Shown: piece by piece, positions 2,679 to 11,022 of the stretch | How the letters are laid out: every line of letters starts with the position of its first letter | How positions within the stretch are numbered: position 1 is the first letter of the stretch | Assembly: GCA_903901045.1 (NCBI GenBank) | Contig: CAIUPP010000001.1 | Location: forward strand, 1 to 35,881 | Origin: an uncultured Planctomycetota bacterium | Lineage (GTDB): Bacteria > Planctomycetota > Brocadiia > CAIUPP01 | Direction of reading: 5' to 3' | Length of the DNA stretch: 35,881 nucleotides | Made by a program: the position numbers and the translations under genes | Notes under the pieces: model-generated | The model's database searches: none | Told to the model about the DNA's origin: nothing | What the model saw: the letters and a program-made list of their open reading frames with translations, nothing else

Positions 2679-3917
2679 TCACGCCCGCCAAAGTGCTTCG
2701 ATGGGCACTGCATGAAGGTTCTTGCCAAAGGGCACGGTTTCGCGTCCTTGGTACAGCACCACGCCGCATCGGAACCGCTTCCCCGTCTCTTCGGCAAGCA
2801 CGCGCAGCCACCTGAAGTCCGTCGCGTTGACTGAGGCACTCGCCTTGACCTCGATGCCCACCAACTCGCCGGAGGGGGATTCCAGCACAACATCTACTTC
2901 CTGCCCTGTCAGCGTGCGGAAGTGAAACAGGTTAGGTTCGGTCTTGCTCCAAGTGACCTGTTTGAATAACTCCGTCACGACAAAGTTCTCCAACAGCGGT
3001 CCGAGCAGGTGTGAGTCGCGTAACGCCTTCTCATCGCCCTGTCCCATAATGGCGGCCGCCAACCCCGTATCATTGAGGTATATCTTGGGTGATTTGACCA
3101 GTCGTTTGCCTAAGTTAGCGGACCATGCCGGCAGCAGCTGAACCAGGAAGGTGGTCTCCAGTAGGGCCATGTACCGTTTGAGTGTGCTTTGTGGCATCCC
3201 GAGACTTCGAGAGATCTCCGCATGATTGAGAAGCGTCCCCGCGCGCGAAGCCAGGAGCGACAGCAACCGCGGCAACATTCCAAGTCCTTCGATATGGGAC
3301 AGGTCCCGGACATCTCTCTGGAGGATGGTCATGACATAGGAGTTGAACCAGGCCCGGCGGCGGCTCCATGTGGCGCGTCCGTGCGCTTCCGGATAGCCTC
3401 CGCGCAAGATGCGCTCCACCATATCCGAGTGCCCATGAGCATCATCGGATTGAAACTTTCCGGGGTCCCCGCCGAACAACAGGTCCACAAAGCCTTCCCG
3501 GTGACCGGCGATCTCACCCTGCGATAGCGGCCAGAGGGGGAGAATCTCCATCCTCCCAGCCAGCGACTCGGAGAGTTTCGGTAGCATCAAGACATTAGCC
3601 GAGCCAGTCAGCAGGAATCGACCAGGCTGACGATTGCGGTCCACGTCGGCCTTAATGGCCAGGAAAAGCTCCGGCGCGCGCTGAATCTCGTCGAGGGCAA
3701 ATGGCCCCTCCGTCCCGGCAAGAAAACCTACCGGGTCGGCTGTCGCTGCCGACAGGACCGATACGTCGTCGAGGGTGAGATACCGGGCTGGACGGTCGCT
3801 GGACGAAACATGCTGCACGAGGGTGCTCTTGCCGGTCTGCCTAGCCCCGTGCAATAGAACCACCGGGCTGTCCGCCAGCGCGGCGAGTAATCTGGGTGAT
3901 ATATGCCTCTTAATCAT
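2679..3917 (-). CDS. AAA ATPase with DUF4143 C-terminal domain
   Basis: The 412-residue product belongs to the AAA_14 / DUF4143 family of P-loop ATPases, common in prokaryotic accessory regions with no settled function. Walker A is GARQTGKST at residues 24-32, Walker B FALDE at about 73-77, followed by LLTGSANVL, a sensor-like strand. The C-terminal DUF4143 part carries EVDVVLE followed by GIEVKAS, the D...ExK arrangement of PD-(D/E)xK nuclease folds. A longer frame reaches 3959, but its extra residues overlap a promoter, and MIKRHISPRL at 3917 is the usual family start. No ribosome binding site precedes that ATG, which sits at the predicted transcription start. It is convergent with the esterase gene and next to the integrase remnant. 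Confidence 0.85.
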   Translation of the reverse strand: MIKRHISPRLLAALADSPVVLLHGARQTGKSTLVQHVSSSDRPARYLTLDDVSVLSAATADPVGFLAGTEGPFALDEIQRAPELFLAIKADVDRNRQPGRFLLTGSANVLMLPKLSESLAGRMEILPLWPLSQGEIAGHREGFVDLLFGGDPGKFQSDDAHGHSDMVERILRGGYPEAHGRATWSRRRAWFNSYVMTILQRDVRDLSHIEGLGMLPRLLSLLASRAGTLLNHAEISRSLGMPQSTLKRYMALLETTFLVQLLPAWSANLGKRLVKSPKIYLNDTGLAAAIMGQGDEKALRDSHLLGPLLENFVVTELFKQVTWSKTEPNLFHFRTLTGQEVDVVLESPSGELVGIEVKASASVNATDFRWLRVLAEETGKRFRCGVVLYQGRETVPFGKNLHAVPIEALWRA

Positions 3918-3923
3918 GCCGTA

Positions 3924-3952
3924 AATATAACCACCACGTGGGTGAAAGTCAA
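3924..3952 (-). promoter_or_regulatory. Strong promoter of the DUF4143 ATPase gene
   Basis: Read on the reverse strand: TTGACT (3952-3947), 17-base spacer, TATATT (3929-3924). Only 6 bases separate the -10 box from ATG 3917, so the mRNA should be leaderless or nearly so. The spacer contains the palindrome CCACGTGG, a possible operator. Confidence 0.65.
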
Positions 3953-4066
3953 CCAGCACAAGGTACTTTATTGAAGGCTGGAATTGGAAACGGTTTGATT
4001 CCAGTCGCTTCCTTCAGCACCTATCATGCAACGGAAACCTCTGACCACGCATCAATATCCGACGAA

Positions 4067-4105: not shown

Positions 4106-4134
4106 GGGACTTGCAGCAATGCAAGTCCCTTTTT
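4106..4134 (+). terminator. Intrinsic terminator with GCAA tetraloop
   Basis: GGGACTTGCA (4106-4115) pairs perfectly with TGCAAGTCCC (4120-4129) around the loop GCAA and is followed by TTTTT. It lies 12 bases after the tRNA-like 3' end, where a tRNA terminator would be expected. Confidence 0.7.
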
Positions 4135-4227: not shown

Positions 4228-4610
4228 ATGGCCGGACTGATTCGACGCGGAACGCAGTACTAAGCTCTCGCAGTTTGAGACGTTACCTCGACCGCTACGC
4301 GCCCCGCCCGACAAAGGGACGCTGGTACTTCCCCAGCCCCGACGCCCAGCGCCGGGACGCCGACAATTTCAGCGCCGACCTTCGCGCCGCCAATGACAAA
4401 GCCGGGCTTCCGTGGGGATGTCTGGACTACCGGCATACCTTCGGAACCCAGCTTGCAATAAAGGGTGAGAGTCTGTATAAGATTTCCAAGCTCATGGGTA
4501 ACTCATCAGAAATCTGTAGACGCCATTATGCGGCGCTCATACCCGAGGCACTCGTCAACACAGTCGAGTTCTGCCACTCAGCGCCAAAGGCAACATTGCG
4601 CACAGCGTAA
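4228..4610 (+). pseudogene. Tyrosine recombinase (integrase) with internal deletion
   Basis: A ribosome binding site GGAGG (4215-4219) precedes ATG 4228, which codes for MAGLIRRGTQY and then meets TAA at 4261-4263. This is the typical start of a phage-type integrase. In another frame, open across the junction and continuing through 4610, lies the C-terminal catalytic half: GRWYFPSP, DYRHTFGTQLA (histidine-containing box), LYKISKLMGNSS and CRRHYAAL with the nucleophilic tyrosine. The central part with the core-binding domain and the first catalytic arginine is missing. An internal deletion near 4258-4275 therefore joined the two ends out of frame, and the element can no longer excise by itself. 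Confidence 0.8.
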
Positions 4611-4701
4611 GTCCCGGCACATCTATTCCTAGCCCGGATACTTGCCGCCGAACGTTCGCGGATGTGCCGACGCTCCTTAGCGTTTGTGGAGAATGGTTCT
4701 C

Positions 4702-6609
4702 ATGAACCGCACAATCACCAGCCTATCGATCGTCGCCACTCTATGGGACCAGCACCGCAAAGACTACCTTGAGTGCTATATCCCCATGCTAGCAACCTTA
4801 ATTCTCCGCAAGGAATACGCCCAAATCGACATTGAAACGGTAACAACAGATTTTCAGGAGGAGTACGGCCTGTCCATTCCTTATCACCCAATGGTTGCCT
4901 TGCTTAACCGAGCCACCAAGAGAGGACTACTGCAGCGTCAAGTGAACGTTTACGTTCCGGTCCTTGATGAGATGCGCAAGCATGATGTTTCTGCTCTTGC
5001 CCAGCAGAACCTGACAGCCATTAGCGGTATCCTGGCGGAGATAGTTCAATTCGCCTCTGAACTTGCGGTCCCAGGTTTCGATATCGCACGTGCCGAGACG
5101 GCTATGATTGCCTTCCTTGCACAATATGACGCGGATATCCTCTTCGCCACTGACACCCCAACCGTACTTCCCCGCGTTAAGCCTTCGCGCCACGACATCT
5201 ATGTCATATCGAAGTATGTTGAACGAGTATTCTCCTCACCACACGCCCACGCCCGCGACCAACTTGTGAACATCGCGGCGGGCCACATACTCGCTGGCGC
5301 AATCACCTTTAGCGACATTATGAAGTACAGTGCCAAGTCAAAGCGGATCAACGTATACCTAGACACCCAATTCATCTTCCGTCTACTCGGGTTCGATGGC
5401 CCATTTCGTGCCCGGTCATACGCCGAACTCGTCAGTCTGATCAATGCGGAGTGCGGGTACGCCTGCCTCTTCCAGCACACCTACGACGAAATCATGCAGA
5501 TAATCCGCAATTGTGAACATTGGCTCAACAACCCCAACTACGACCCACTCAAGGCCTCGCCCGTACTCAGGTATTTTGTCGAAACCAACGCACGCTCAAG
5601 CGACATCGACCGCCTCATTATCACCCTGCGCGACAGACTTGAGAAAGAACACAACATCTCCATCCGGCCAGCTCCAGTTTTCGACGCCAACAGAAATGAC
5701 GTTATCGATGAGCTAGCCCTTCAGAACGCAATCTTAGACGTTTACGGCCTCCCCGACATCACCACTCTTGATACCTATAAGAAGAGGACCATACTCCGCG
5801 ACATCAAGTCGATATCGAGCGTTCACGTTCTCCGTCGCGGCAGACCTGCCCACACTCTGCGCGAGGCTAAGCATCTTTTCATAACCACCAACAGTGGCTT
5901 AGCCGCTGCCAACCGACAATACGAGATATCCGTCGACACAGGCAGCATTGTTTTCGCATGTGTTACAGACGTATTTCTAGGTACAGTCCTCTGGGCGCAA
6001 TCGCCGGCCGCATTACGGACTATCATTACCAACAACCTAATTGCAAATTGCCAAGCCATTCTCCAGCCCACGCCCGCTCTCTTAAGGCGATACACTGAGC
6101 GCCTCAAGGAACTACATTCCCAAGGCACCATTTCCGAACAGGAATTCTACCTCCTCCGTTCCCAGCGTCTCGCGCTTGCGCTTCTCGTAGACCACACCCT
6201 CGGCGATCCGGCGGGTTTCTCTGACGAACTTCCTGAGCAGATTCTTCACGACATGCAGCTGAGGACAATCCAAGATGCCGTAACTGCCCGCGACCGTGCG
6301 GTAACCGCCCAGATTCAAGCAGAAGAGCAATTGCGCATCGTTCGCGACAAGACCCTCCAAGTCACCCGCAAGATTTCATCTTTTCTGGCACTGTTAGTTG
6401 CACTTCTCTTCCTCCTGACAACAGTTACGACCCTCATCTATCAGGCCGCATCTCCCACCCCTAACAAGACTGTCATGATCATTGCCGCCATTCTTGGCAT
6501 CCTCAGTGCATTTTTTAGTTGTGACTTCTTCACTATTCGTCACAAGCTCACAAACATCTTCGCCACTTGGCTAGCACAGGCGCTCACAGTGGACGCCGGA
6601 CCACTTTGA
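4702..6609 (+). CDS. PIN-like nuclease domain protein with two C-terminal membrane helices
   Basis: I do not know a named family for this 635-residue protein. Residues 1-85 look like a helical, winged-helix-like region (TDFQEEYGLSIPYHPMVALL, then NRATKRGLLQR). The middle carries a PIN-like pattern: VYLDTQFIF (Asp 221), YDEIMQII (Glu 263), LRDIKSI (Asp 367) and HLFITTNSGL (395-397), matching in order the acidic residues and final T/N of PIN nucleases. Residues 519-554 are charged and coiled-coil-like, followed by two hydrophobic helices (about 559-581 and 591-609). The nuclease would therefore be held at the inner membrane. ATG 4702 is preceded by GGAGA at a spacing of 9; ATG 4693 sits too close to it. 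Codon use is plainly less GC-rich than the neighbours, which suggests transfer. It follows an integrase remnant, so a defence or stress role is possible but inferred. Confidence 0.7.
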   Translation: MNRTITSLSIVATLWDQHRKDYLECYIPMLATLILRKEYAQIDIETVTTDFQEEYGLSIPYHPMVALLNRATKRGLLQRQVNVYVPVLDEMRKHDVSALAQQNLTAISGILAEIVQFASELAVPGFDIARAETAMIAFLAQYDADILFATDTPTVLPRVKPSRHDIYVISKYVERVFSSPHAHARDQLVNIAAGHILAGAITFSDIMKYSAKSKRINVYLDTQFIFRLLGFDGPFRARSYAELVSLINAECGYACLFQHTYDEIMQIIRNCEHWLNNPNYDPLKASPVLRYFVETNARSSDIDRLIITLRDRLEKEHNISIRPAPVFDANRNDVIDELALQNAILDVYGLPDITTLDTYKKRTILRDIKSISSVHVLRRGRPAHTLREAKHLFITTNSGLAAANRQYEISVDTGSIVFACVTDVFLGTVLWAQSPAALRTIITNNLIANCQAILQPTPALLRRYTERLKELHSQGTISEQEFYLLRSQRLALALLVDHTLGDPAGFSDELPEQILHDMQLRTIQDAVTARDRAVTAQIQAEEQLRIVRDKTLQVTRKISSFLALLVALLFLLTTVTTLIYQAASPTPNKTVMIIAAILGILSAFFSCDFFTIRHKLTNIFATWLAQALTVDAGPL

Positions 6610-6958: not shown

Positions 6959-9900
6959 TCACTTTTTCTCTCTCCTGGAGAAGGCCTTCACGGCTTCGTT
7001 GCGCACGTAGAGGGAGGGAATCTTCTTCAGGGCGCGGCGCAGCAGCGCGTCGGAGCTGCTCTGCCGGTGCGCCACGAGACCCACTGCCGCCGTGGCCGCT
7101 ACAACGGAGGAAGGGTCTTTGACAAGCCGGCAAAGCGCCTCGCGCGCGCGGGGAGTGCCCACTCGCCCAAGAACTCTGGCGGCGGTCTGCCGCAGCCGCC
7201 AGTCGGGGTCCGTCACGTGCCCCAGCGCGTCCGCCTCCGACCAGACAGATGGAAGCGGCGTCGGCGCGCGGCGCGGGTTCCCCAGGAAGAGGTACCCGTT
7301 CTCGGTTTCCTGGCCATGCGGAAGATCTTCGGGGTAATAGAGGATGTCCGGCCGGTGCGGGTCCGTCAGGCGAACGGGGATGGCGACCGGCTTCGCGGCC
7401 GGTTCCGTCCGCGCCGGCCAGCGACGCGCCTTCAACCCGCCGCGCTCCTGGCTCAGAATGACCGTTTCCCCCGGTTTCATGCGGACAGGTCCCGCCGCGC
7501 GCGAGACCTTTCCGCCGCGTTTCATCCATACCGGCGCTTCGGGACGCCATGGGGCGCGCAAGTCCAGAATGCCCCCGTTGAGGCTTTGGACGGCGATGAA
7601 GGAGACTTGCGAGCCGGTCCACTCGCCGCTGAGGAGGAAGCCCCCCATGGCCCGCATCCCGGCGAAGCGGCAAGGCGCTCCCTCTCCCACGCAAGGAAAT
7701 ACGTCGATATGGTCCGGGAAGGACTGAAGCAGCCGCTCGGCAAGCGCGGCCGTCTGGCCGGAACTGGCCTCGATGATGCCCATTCGCTCCAAGAAGAGGG
7801 AATGGCGCGGGTCGCAAATGGAGCGCAGGCCGTTGCGTTTGAGTTGCCGCCCCAGTACCAGCGACGCGAACAGCCGGTCGAAATCCCGGGGGCGGCGCAG
7901 CCGCGCGGCGAAGGCCAGGAGGAAGGAGGTGGCATGGCCATTGGGCTCGATGCCTCCTTCGTGCCCGACGATGGTCTTGTGGCGGTCCTCGTAATGGAAC
8001 GCGAACAGGTTCGTAACCAGGTCGAACGTGCGCTGCGCCATCTCGTATTCCTTCATCCCCTTTCGCCACAAGCCGAGCGGATAAAGGCCCATGAGGACGA
8101 CGGGATGACAACGATACGGATGCGGGTTGCTCAGCGTTTCGAAAATGGTTTTTCCGTCGCCGGGCAGAGGGAACAGGCGCGCGAGCACGGACTTGAAGCG
8201 CCGCCGCTCGGCCTCGTCCACGCGCAGAATCGTCGAGGCGGAGATGACCGCCTTCAGGAGCGCCTCCACCGACACGCGGTCGTAGACATTGTCGGAGGCG
8301 GTCTTCTCCTGCTCCGGCGAGCCGGAATGCAGGCAGTGGTACACGCCGCCCCTGAGCGTCATCGTCGCTGCGATGGCTTCAGCCGCCGAGCGCAGAATGG
8401 GGTAGGCCACGCGCGCGAGGAAGCGCTTGTCCCCCGAGTACAGATAGTCCCACCAGAAGTCCAGAACATGCCAGGCGGTGGAGCCGAAGGGGTAGGGATG
8501 CACGAAAGGAGGCGCCAGCATGGCATGCCCGCCGCCTTCGATGGGAACGAACCAGTGCGGCGCTTTCGCGCCCGCGCCGGCGGTGTGCTCGGCATGCTCC
8601 TTCCAGCATTCGGCGTAGGTGGACAGCAGGGGAGCCGTGAGCGCAAGGTGATTGGAGGCGTAGGCGCCCCAGGTCAGCATTTCCGTCTGCGCGTCCGTCA
8701 CGTGACAGTCCAGCCAGGTCCGATGGTCAATGGGCTGGGTGAGTCCAAAGAAACCCGGCGCGCTGTTGCCGGCGAAGCTGCACGCCATGTGGTACAGCCC
8801 CTGGTAATAGAGGTTCTCCTGCAACGGGTCCGGCATCTGGAGAAAGGAGCGCTGCCAGAATTCCTCCCAGCGCTTCGTGTGCCGCTCCAGCGTGCTGTGC
8901 AACGCCCGCCGGACGTTCCTGCTGTTGCGCCGAAGGCTGGCGGCTTCTTCGCCCGGGGAGGCAACCGACACGGCCACGGTCAGCCGCGCCGTCTTGCCGG
9001 GCAGGAGCCGGAGCGTGCCACGCACGGCGTTCCGCGCAGCCCCCTCCTCCACGCGGAGGTCGCCCGCCAGCGTGCCGGTGACGGAGAGGTTCGGGGCGAG
9101 GCAGGTCAAGTTCGCCCCCTGGACGATCATCGGCGCGCGAGGACACTTCCGGAGTTCGGCGCGATAACGGGCCACATCTCCTCGCGTTGCGATACGAGCC
9201 CAACTCCCGTTCCAGAGCGAGACGACACTCTCTGAAAGGAGCGGCAGTTCGCGGCGGGTCAGGGTGATGCCGATCTTCCGGGGCGACCGGGCGCACAGTT
9301 CGATGACGGCTACGGAATGCTCCCGATCGATGTACGCCACAATCGTCAGGTCATCCTGCGTGGTCGTCACGACCCCTCGCCCAAGGGAGAGTCGCTGGGC
9401 AAAGCGCCGGAACGCGCCGCAGTCGAGGTGGAGGTCGCAGGCGTAGCCGCGTCCAAGCGGGTGTTCCCGTTCCGTGGCCAGCCAGATATCCGCCCTGTCC
9501 AGCCCCAGACTGAGTCTGCCCTTGGGGCCTCCCGTCACAACACCGCCGAGGATGCCGTTGCCGAGGTAGAGCCCCTCCGTCCAGTGGCGGGCGGGCTTCT
9601 CGAAGAGGATGTCATGCTTCCGAAGGTACGCCGAAACGCGGAAACCCTGCTCGACCCCCGGCCACCGGCCAATGGCACGCTCGCGGTGGGAGAGGTAGGA
9701 ATCCAAGTCCTTCTCGGGTGAATGAGGGAGCGCCCCCGCCGGCCCCTTCCCGCACCGGACCGTCGACGTGCTGCTTTCTCCGGAGGGAGAGATCACTCTC
9801 AAGCGCAACGCCCCGCGCAGCGCCCGTTCGGGAACCCAGAAGCCGCACGTCCATGGATACGCCGTCTCGGGATGCACGCGCTCCGCGTCCAGCGCCGCGT

Positions 9901-10033
9901 TGCGCGCGTCAAGAAGTTCAAGAACCGTGCCGGGTTGCAGCGGCGATTTGAAGGTGTGCTTGATGAGGCGGCTCGTGCGCCCCGTGTCGCGGTTGCGCCA
10001 TTGTTGCCGGTCGATAGCGAAGTAATATGTCAT
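6959..10033 (-). CDS. GH95-like glycoside hydrolase with C-terminal HEAT-like repeats
   Basis: The 1,024-residue protein resembles the six-hairpin (alpha/alpha)6 glycosidases around family GH95 (alpha-L-fucosidase / galactosidase). The N-terminal half has the typical WTEGLYLGNGILGGVV (151-166) and LSLGLDRADIW, equivalent to the LPLGNGRLGAMV and NEDTLW segments of GH95. Aromatic- and acid-rich catalytic-barrel segments follow (TWLDCHVTDAQTEM, WHVLDFWWDYLYSGD, EGGIEPNGHA). The last 100 residues hold HEAT/PBS-like repeats (DPDWRLRQTAARVLGRVG, DPSSVVAATAAVGLVAH), unusual for this family and perhaps a protein-binding tail. No signal peptide is visible, so it is probably cytoplasmic. It lies 29 bases after the LacI gene on the same strand and is probably co-transcribed with it. 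The exact sugar is not readable from sequence. Confidence 0.75.
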   Translation of the reverse strand: MTYYFAIDRQQWRNRDTGRTSRLIKHTFKSPLQPGTVLELLDARNAALDAERVHPETAYPWTCGFWVPERALRGALRLRVISPSGESSTSTVRCGKGPAGALPHSPEKDLDSYLSHRERAIGRWPGVEQGFRVSAYLRKHDILFEKPARHWTEGLYLGNGILGGVVTGGPKGRLSLGLDRADIWLATEREHPLGRGYACDLHLDCGAFRRFAQRLSLGRGVVTTTQDDLTIVAYIDREHSVAVIELCARSPRKIGITLTRRELPLLSESVVSLWNGSWARIATRGDVARYRAELRKCPRAPMIVQGANLTCLAPNLSVTGTLAGDLRVEEGAARNAVRGTLRLLPGKTARLTVAVSVASPGEEAASLRRNSRNVRRALHSTLERHTKRWEEFWQRSFLQMPDPLQENLYYQGLYHMACSFAGNSAPGFFGLTQPIDHRTWLDCHVTDAQTEMLTWGAYASNHLALTAPLLSTYAECWKEHAEHTAGAGAKAPHWFVPIEGGGHAMLAPPFVHPYPFGSTAWHVLDFWWDYLYSGDKRFLARVAYPILRSAAEAIAATMTLRGGVYHCLHSGSPEQEKTASDNVYDRVSVEALLKAVISASTILRVDEAERRRFKSVLARLFPLPGDGKTIFETLSNPHPYRCHPVVLMGLYPLGLWRKGMKEYEMAQRTFDLVTNLFAFHYEDRHKTIVGHEGGIEPNGHATSFLLAFAARLRRPRDFDRLFASLVLGRQLKRNGLRSICDPRHSLFLERMGIIEASSGQTAALAERLLQSFPDHIDVFPCVGEGAPCRFAGMRAMGGFLLSGEWTGSQVSFIAVQSLNGGILDLRAPWRPEAPVWMKRGGKVSRAAGPVRMKPGETVILSQERGGLKARRWPARTEPAAKPVAIPVRLTDPHRPDILYYPEDLPHGQETENGYLFLGNPRRAPTPLPSVWSEADALGHVTDPDWRLRQTAARVLGRVGTPRAREALCRLVKDPSSVVAATAAVGLVAHRQSSSDALLRRALKKIPSLYVRNEAVKAFSRREKK

Positions 10034-10062
10034 GGAAACCGCCGGATCATGAAGGGAAAATA

Positions 10063-11022
10063 TCAGAGGTCGCGAACCGACTCGCGCTCAGCCAACTCAT
10101 ACGGGACGCAGCACTTGCGCTGATCGACCGGCTGGCCCTCCATCCGCTTGACCAGCTTGCCGACGGCCAGTTCGGCCACCTTCTTGAGCGGCTGCACGAG
10201 GCAGGTGATCGGCGGGTACGTGAACCGCGGGCCGCCGTCATACTCCTGGCCGATCACCGATACGTCCCGCGGGAAATCCTTGTTGAAGAGCCGCAGGAAG
10301 AAAAGCACCTTCGGCAGCCAGGAGGGCTCCGGGCAGAACAGCGCGGTCATTCCCTCGGCGCACAGGCGCTGTATCCCTTCCAGCAGCAGCGAATCGTCGT
10401 TCTGGAATACGAGGGACTGGCGGAACAGGTCGTTCTGTTCCATGACTTCTTTGTACCCATCGAAGTGTGCGCGCACGCCGCGGCTCACCACTTTGGAGCC
10501 GACATAAGCGATCTTCCGATGCCCCCGCTCGAGAAAATGGCGCGTCGCCATCGCCCCGCCCTGGGTGTGGTCGGAACTCACCAGAATCGCCTCGGGAGCG
10601 AGCTCTTCCGTCAGGTCGTCAATCGTCACGAAGGGAACCTTGCTGGCGAACTTGCGCGCGACCGTCAGCGAAGCCGCATCCTCCTGGTGCAAGATGGCAA
10701 TGAACGCCCGCTGGAAGATGAGGGGGGATCGCTCAATTTCCGACAGCGGCGACACGACCACGTGGTACCGCTGCTCGTTCAGAAGCGACACAATGGTGCT
10801 GAGCATCACGTTGTCCCCCATGTAGAAATGGGGAGGGGCAGGAATGATCAGACAGACAGTCCGGATGCGGTTGGGAATCACCCGGGGGCTGAAATTCATC
10901 TGTTGGCACACGCTGCGGATTCTAGCCAGCGTTTCCGGGCGCACTTTCTCCGGAGTGTTCAGCGCGCGCGAAACGGTAACGCAGGAAACACCTGCATTCT
11001 TGGCGATCTGACCCATTGACAT
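10063..11022 (-). CDS. LacI/GalR-family transcriptional regulator
   Basis: The 319-residue product has the LacI helix-turn-helix at its N-terminus (GQIAKNAGVSCVTVSRALN, residues 4-22) and hinge region, followed by a periplasmic-binding-like sensor domain (TVCLIIPAPP, VSSDHTQGG, HRKIAYVGS, DVSVIGQEYD). It should bind a sugar or sugar phosphate and control the glycosidase gene directly downstream and probably the facing dehydrogenase. ATG 11022 has GGAG at a spacing of 8. A perfect 12-bp palindrome with a central CG, as usual for LacI operators, lies in its promoter at 11107-11118, which suggests self-regulation. Confidence 0.9.
   Translation of the reverse strand: MSMGQIAKNAGVSCVTVSRALNTPEKVRPETLARIRSVCQQMNFSPRVIPNRIRTVCLIIPAPPHFYMGDNVMLSTIVSLLNEQRYHVVVSPLSEIERSPLIFQRAFIAILHQEDAASLTVARKFASKVPFVTIDDLTEELAPEAILVSSDHTQGGAMATRHFLERGHRKIAYVGSKVVSRGVRAHFDGYKEVMEQNDLFRQSLVFQNDDSLLLEGIQRLCAEGMTALFCPEPSWLPKVLFFLRLFNKDFPRDVSVIGQEYDGGPRFTYPPITCLVQPLKKVAELAVGKLVKRMEGQPVDQRKCCVPYELAERESVRDL

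Follow-up and report, generated by a model that had tools for sequence, protein, structure and literature searches.

The question raised by this locus is what function is encoded by a gene of lower G+C content that is located beside the remnant of an integrase; the original prediction proposed an orphan phage defense protein, a membrane-tethered PIN nuclease, that acts alone or with a nearby ATPase. The window that was analyzed is a 35,881-nucleotide stretch of DNA from an uncultured Planctomycetota bacterium (Table 1), and the gene is present in a single copy in the genome of this organism (a 4.77 Mb assembly in 154 contigs). Its reading frame encodes 635 residues from an ATG, and an alternative TTG start would give 4684–6609; judged from the sequence, the ATG at 4702 is the more likely start, with the closest homologue beginning at the same point and a GGAG ribosome-site-like sequence located ~11 bases upstream. 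The lower G+C content was confirmed (~0.53 over 4500–6500 vs 0.60–0.68 on either side), as was the integrase remnant, which matches only the C-terminal half of the Phage_integrase profile and ends 92 bases before the gene; the remnant is mobility context and is outside the mechanism. No attachment sites were recognized around the gene in a repeat search, which returned only chance-like short pairs. Between the ATPase gene and the integrase remnant, positions 4106–4134 contain a perfect 10-bp hairpin (GGGACTTGCA/TGCAAGTCCC) with a run of five T after it, a sequence resembling an intrinsic terminator.

Table 1. Features of the window at and beside the gene for the PIN protein.
Feature	Position	Strand	Evidence
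AAA_14-DUF4143 ATPase	2679–3959	−	PADLOC candidate PDC-S01, 3e-172; adjoins the low-GC stretch
Tyrosine recombinase/integrase, C-terminal remnant, 111 aa	4275–4610	+	Pfam Phage_integrase, 5.3e-5, profile positions 83–167 of 172
CDS of the membrane-tethered PIN protein, 635 aa	4702–6609	+	Open reading frame, family membership
N-terminal winged-helix-like domain, aa 2–108	4705–5025	+	VIA-align, MarR/PadR folds, Z 7.4–9.8; pLDDT ~70–85
All-helical linker, aa 109–203, with the conserved G194/L197 helix at its end	5026–5310	+	Model, conservation
PIN first half, aa 214–280: strand with D221 (5362–5364), helix with E263 (5488–5490)	5341–5541	+	hhalign, structure
Family-specific insert between PIN motifs 2 and 3, ~aa 281–357	5542–5772	+	Alignment, model
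PIN second half, aa 358–437: D367 (5800–5802), R378, G380, T395 (5884–5886), N397 (5890–5892), W431	5773–6012	+	Conservation, fold match to residue 437
Long helix/probable coiled coil, aa 510–560	6229–6381	+	Unbroken predicted helix 510–581
Transmembrane helix 1, aa 561–579	6382–6438	+	Hydropathy 2.62; same position in 16/16 members
Transmembrane helix 2, aa 591–609	6472–6528	+	Hydrophobic stretch

The PIN assignment is supported by several comparisons. The full-length AlphaFold model (mc122bbe0ce12) is weak (pLDDT 61, pTM 0.37); in this model residues 2–108 resemble the winged helices of MarR/PadR proteins (Z up to 9.8), in agreement with the winged-helix-like N-terminus that had been predicted, and residues 213–437 match PIN proteins. 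Because of the low confidence of the full-length model, residues 163–470 were folded separately; the resulting domain model (me5415f5c9a52) has a pTM of 0.73 and a core pLDDT of ~80–94. Its best Foldseek match is the PIN-like RNase P HARP (7og5; probability 1.00, e-value 0.024), and its best rows in VIA-align are PIN-type folds (Z 7.4–10.3; the top row is VapC, Z 10.3 over 132 residues). The best VIA-align matches are RNA-cleaving PIN proteins (VapC, HARP, SMG6, and the exosome subunit Rrp44), not FEN-type DNases. No Foldseek e-value for the domain model was below 0.001, so we sought independent support in profile–profile comparison. When the PIN region of the family was compared with PIN_3 proteins of related genomes using hhalign, the probabilities were 84–91%, with D221 and E263 placed on the PIN aspartate and glutamate; the controls gave ≤2.2% (200 column shuffles), 0.2% (reversed profile), and ≤0.3% (N- and C-terminal regions), and the second half of the PIN domain, when used alone, gave an uninformative 4.7%. 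Pfam PIN_3 (PF13470) matches two homologues weakly and in the correct register; the best score, 21.9 bits in a homologue, does not reach the cut-off of 27 bits, and the window protein has no match. These scores identify a divergent PIN domain that is outside the membership of PIN_3. The presence of a PIN fold in the window protein is therefore highly probable: the structure comparison that had been proposed as a check finds a PIN core, and the profile comparison with its shuffles agrees. In the window protein the PIN active-site set is complete (D221, E263, D367, T395, and N397), and the protein is a putative nuclease.

The gene is not an orphan as originally described; relatives are present in at least five phyla. 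Two are found within the phylum of the window (genomes G368 and G400), a Nitrospinae metagenome-assembled genome (locus L005) encodes a homologue that is 36% identical to the window protein, and tblastn located relatives on plasmids of Enterococcus, Hymenobacter, Arthrobacter, Sporosarcina, Citrobacter, Pantoea, and Klebsiella; six E. coli chromosomes and one viral contig (L022) carry relatives that were reached via the enterobacterial copies. The family is sparse: within the window's phylum it was found in 3 genomes out of 294, and in E. coli, by DNA similarity, in 6 out of 5,426. Identity to the window protein is higher for the Nitrospinae homologue (35%) than for that of G400, which is from the same phylum as the window (23%), as would fit horizontal transfer, and nearly all homologues are carried by plasmids or prophages or lie next to recombinases. 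Credible matches to the window protein were absent from Pfam, NCBIfam, PHROGs, and PADLOC, and in PADLOC-DB 2.0.0 neither it nor the homologues scanned had a credible full-length match. The INPHARED phage records matched neither the window protein nor the E. coli homologue, the IMG/VR scans identified one prophage (L022), the family profile found nothing credible among PDB sequences, and a literature lookup by accession located no matching paper. A Listeria monocytogenes plasmid contains a gene (L027:7995–8756), directly after an IS6 transposase, that matches only the C-terminal third of the family (the post-PIN region, long helix, and membrane part); this is probably a shortened copy.

The 16 full-length members that were aligned have a common architecture: a winged helix resembling those of MarR/PadR proteins, a PIN domain interrupted by a long insert, then a long helix and, at the C-terminus, a pair of membrane helices. 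The coiled coil that had been predicted is probable, the region being recovered as a single predicted helix (510–581); the predicted membrane pair occurs at the corresponding position in each of the 16 members, and the positive charge before the first helix and after the second suggests a hairpin whose two ends face the cytoplasm. The invariant residues are P60, G194, D221, G230, G233, F257, E263, R378, G380, T395, and W431. The predicted acidic set is thus upheld in all members for D221, E263, and T395, and only in 12 of the 16 for D367 and N397; the latter pair is missing from one clade (Citrobacter, an E. coli lambdoid prophage with the homologue WP_136676584, Pantoea soli, and Duffyella; L010, L016, L025, and L026) that retains the other three residues. 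From their sequences, the members of this clade may not cleave or may have an altered active site, and they are the main loose end. Closely related pairs have dN/dS values of ~0.06 (Klebsiella/E. coli) and ~0.10 (Citrobacter/E. coli), that is, the protein is under strong purifying selection.

A distant sister protein, which represents a second family with this order of parts, provides further evidence on the active site. Genome G175 encodes a 636-residue protein (L065:1931–3838, minus strand) that aligns with the family over the PIN motifs (family HMM, 6.6e-13) and has the order N-terminal domain, PIN, long helix, and one membrane helix; its gene adjoins those for an Eco57I-type methylase and a protein-kinase-like protein. 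D253, E295, D402, and D432 occupy the four PIN positions, and the aspartate at the fourth supports the assignment of N397.

We then used the genome neighborhoods of the homologues as evidence for function. In G368 the order on one strand is hsdM-hsdS-gene-hsdR, and the homologue overlaps hsdS and hsdR by 4 bp each; this copy (L030:6090–15042) is split into two halves by a DDE transposase gene at 9877–11004. In the Nitrospinae locus the homologue is the third gene, 69 bases after those for a type II methyltransferase and a TdeIII restriction enzyme. Type III systems are found with two others: in G400 res and mod are located 0.8 kb downstream, with a tyrosine recombinase directly upstream, and on the Hymenobacter plasmid a divergent mod/res pair is 0.2 kb away. 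On the Sporosarcina plasmid, CBASS genes are located at a distance of 1.2 kb. Copies in E. coli strains and in the viral contig L022 occupy prophage positions: in strain FDAARGOS_1337 the homologue (WP_204691543) is located in a P2-like prophage beside G and divergent from FI, the same slot that is filled in the same orientation by fun(Z) in P2 itself (annotated ‘cloned gene blocks growth of T5; nonessential; lysogenic conversion’); in strain MEI7BO1-21 and L022 it adjoins ogr in P2-like prophages; and in strain MS21324 it is at the end of a lambdoid prophage, by ssrA. P2-like phages also have defense genes at another hotspot (PMC9122126). As simple counts, with no statistical test of enrichment, known defense genes are adjacent in 5 of ~16 loci, and prophage accessory positions add three; no recognized defense neighbor was found for the plasmid copies of Enterococcus, Arthrobacter, Citrobacter, Pantoea, Klebsiella, and Duffyella. 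The survey of neighborhoods that had been suggested thus located restriction–modification (R-M) operons, proximity to CBASS, and prophage accessory slots, and no housekeeping contexts.

Among the loci examined, no neighboring gene is common to the homologues, so the protein most likely works alone. This agrees with one half of the earlier proposal; the other half, joint action with the AAA_14-DUF4143 ATPase, was rejected because that gene is beside none of the homologues examined and is not a conserved neighbor. No antitoxin was found beside the homologues, and the small genes downstream in Hymenobacter, Pantoea, and E. coli look unrelated. The gene directly after the Pantoea homologue (L011:10040–10456) encodes a 138-residue protein that contains an RNRVAH motif, HEPN-like when judged by eye, and has a hydrophobic helix at its C-terminus; it is not conserved beside other members of the family.

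The R-M operons, the proximity to CBASS, the fun(Z) slot, and the other prophage positions favor a defense role; an anti-phage role of the family is likely, and the protein very probably provides stand-alone phage defense. For the mode of action, RNA cleavage with an abortive outcome is slightly favored. The explanation that we prefer, by a modest preponderance, is that the family is a single-gene, membrane-anchored, auto-inhibited PIN RNase that causes abortive infection. The C-terminal hairpin would anchor the protein in the inner membrane and leave its other parts (winged helix, PIN domain, and coiled coil) on the cytoplasmic side; the winged helix and the helical linker, perhaps together with the PIN insert, would both sense infection and keep the nuclease inactive. 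Once the protein is triggered, the putative metal-dependent PIN site (D221, E263, D367, and T395/N397) would cut RNA, most likely tRNA or mRNA, and this cleavage would halt phage production by the infected cell. Against this explanation are the clade without D367 and N397 and the several plasmid homologues with no recognized defense neighbor.

The membrane hairpin could instead be the effector, that is, the activated protein would oligomerize and damage the membrane as SLATT proteins do, with the PIN domain as a sensor or as a binder of nucleotide or nucleic acid and cutting dispensable. The hairpin is universal in the alignment, the clade without D367 and N397 still has its membrane part, and one homologue matches NCBIfam SLATT_4 over the hairpin (8.2e-5), a two-helix likeness shared with the SLATT effectors. 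However, this match occurs in a single member and, at 22.5 bits, is far under the cut-off of 55 bits, and the SLATT_4 proteins that were compared have long helices after the hairpin that are absent from the PIN family, so SLATT membership was rejected; also, the sister protein has a full set of PIN residues but a single membrane helix, a combination that an anchoring role of the membrane part would predict. We consider this alternative unlikely. A second alternative, which we also judge improbable, is exclusion at the membrane: an anchored PIN-like DNase would destroy incoming phage DNA or block entry of the genome, and the cell would survive. Both the membrane tether and the homologue in the exclusion-gene slot of a prophage are in keeping with this; however, the closest structures are the RNA-cleaving PIN proteins, although the fold alone does not fix the substrate.

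The neighborhoods could also suggest that the protein helps or controls the adjoining R-M system, for example as a back-up when R-M is blocked, given that in four unrelated lineages it is found inside a type I, behind a type II, or beside a type III system. These types are wholly different, however, and at least 10 homologues have no R-M neighbor, so R-M is not required; we regard such an accessory or regulatory role as quite doubtful. Finally, an addiction toxin that stabilizes mobile elements without an antiviral role is very improbable: the association of nearly all homologues with plasmids, prophages, or recombinases would suit it, but neither an antitoxin nor any other conserved neighbor was found, and the embedding in R-M loci and the fun(Z) slot indicate defense.

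The preferred explanation, a membrane-anchored PIN RNase, can be placed beside known systems. PIN or HipA systems are said to have been validated elsewhere, Brenes and Laub 2025 and Payne 2024 reportedly being among the works on them that DefensePredictor cites. One parallel by description is DS-3, one of the DefensePredictor systems. That PIN nucleases contribute to phage defense outside toxin–antitoxin pairs is a recent finding, and DS-3 is a published one-protein PIN defense that establishes such a mechanism as real (PMC13092281). Like the window protein it is a single protein with PIN motifs that are separated in the sequence and has no antitoxin, and it is found in E. coli; the window family differs in that its PIN domain occupies the middle third of the protein, preceded by a winged helix and followed by a membrane hairpin. 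From this comparison of descriptions, DS-3 may or may not belong to the same family. VapC of VapBC resembles the window protein in its PIN fold (Z up to 10.3 in VIA-align) and in the D/E/D/(T-N) set; however, it has ~130 residues and is paired with the VapB antitoxin, whereas the window protein has 635 residues, is membrane-anchored, and has a winged helix and no antitoxin. Assignment to VapBC was rejected given the lack of an adjacent antitoxin gene or a conserved small neighbor. HARP, the bacterial protein-only RNase P and top Foldseek match, likewise has a PIN-like domain with a helical insert between motifs, but it is a soluble tRNA-processing enzyme of <200 residues, and the sequence identity is 11–14%. 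P2 Fun(Z) resembles the family in position, since a homologue takes its G–FI slot in a P2-like prophage and both are accessory and in the same orientation; it differs in containing a P-loop (GEKGTGKT) and in lacking any strongly hydrophobic helix, and homology was rejected because the family HMM finds no match to it.

We tentatively propose a broader possibility, namely that this is an undescribed and widely transferred one-gene immune family, an auto-inhibited PIN RNase with an inner-membrane anchor and a winged-helix sensor of its own, that serves as a built-in back-up in R-M operons of types I, II, and III and, in P2-like phages, as a substitute for fun(Z) that excludes rivals. If this reading of the R-M embedding is correct, the protein would watch for phages that escape or block restriction. 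The result would add a defense family that annotation has missed, one found in at least five phyla, with three kinds of R-M systems, and in prophages, and absent from the four libraries scanned. The family is directly testable because copies exist in E. coli prophages, one of them in a classical exclusion-gene slot.
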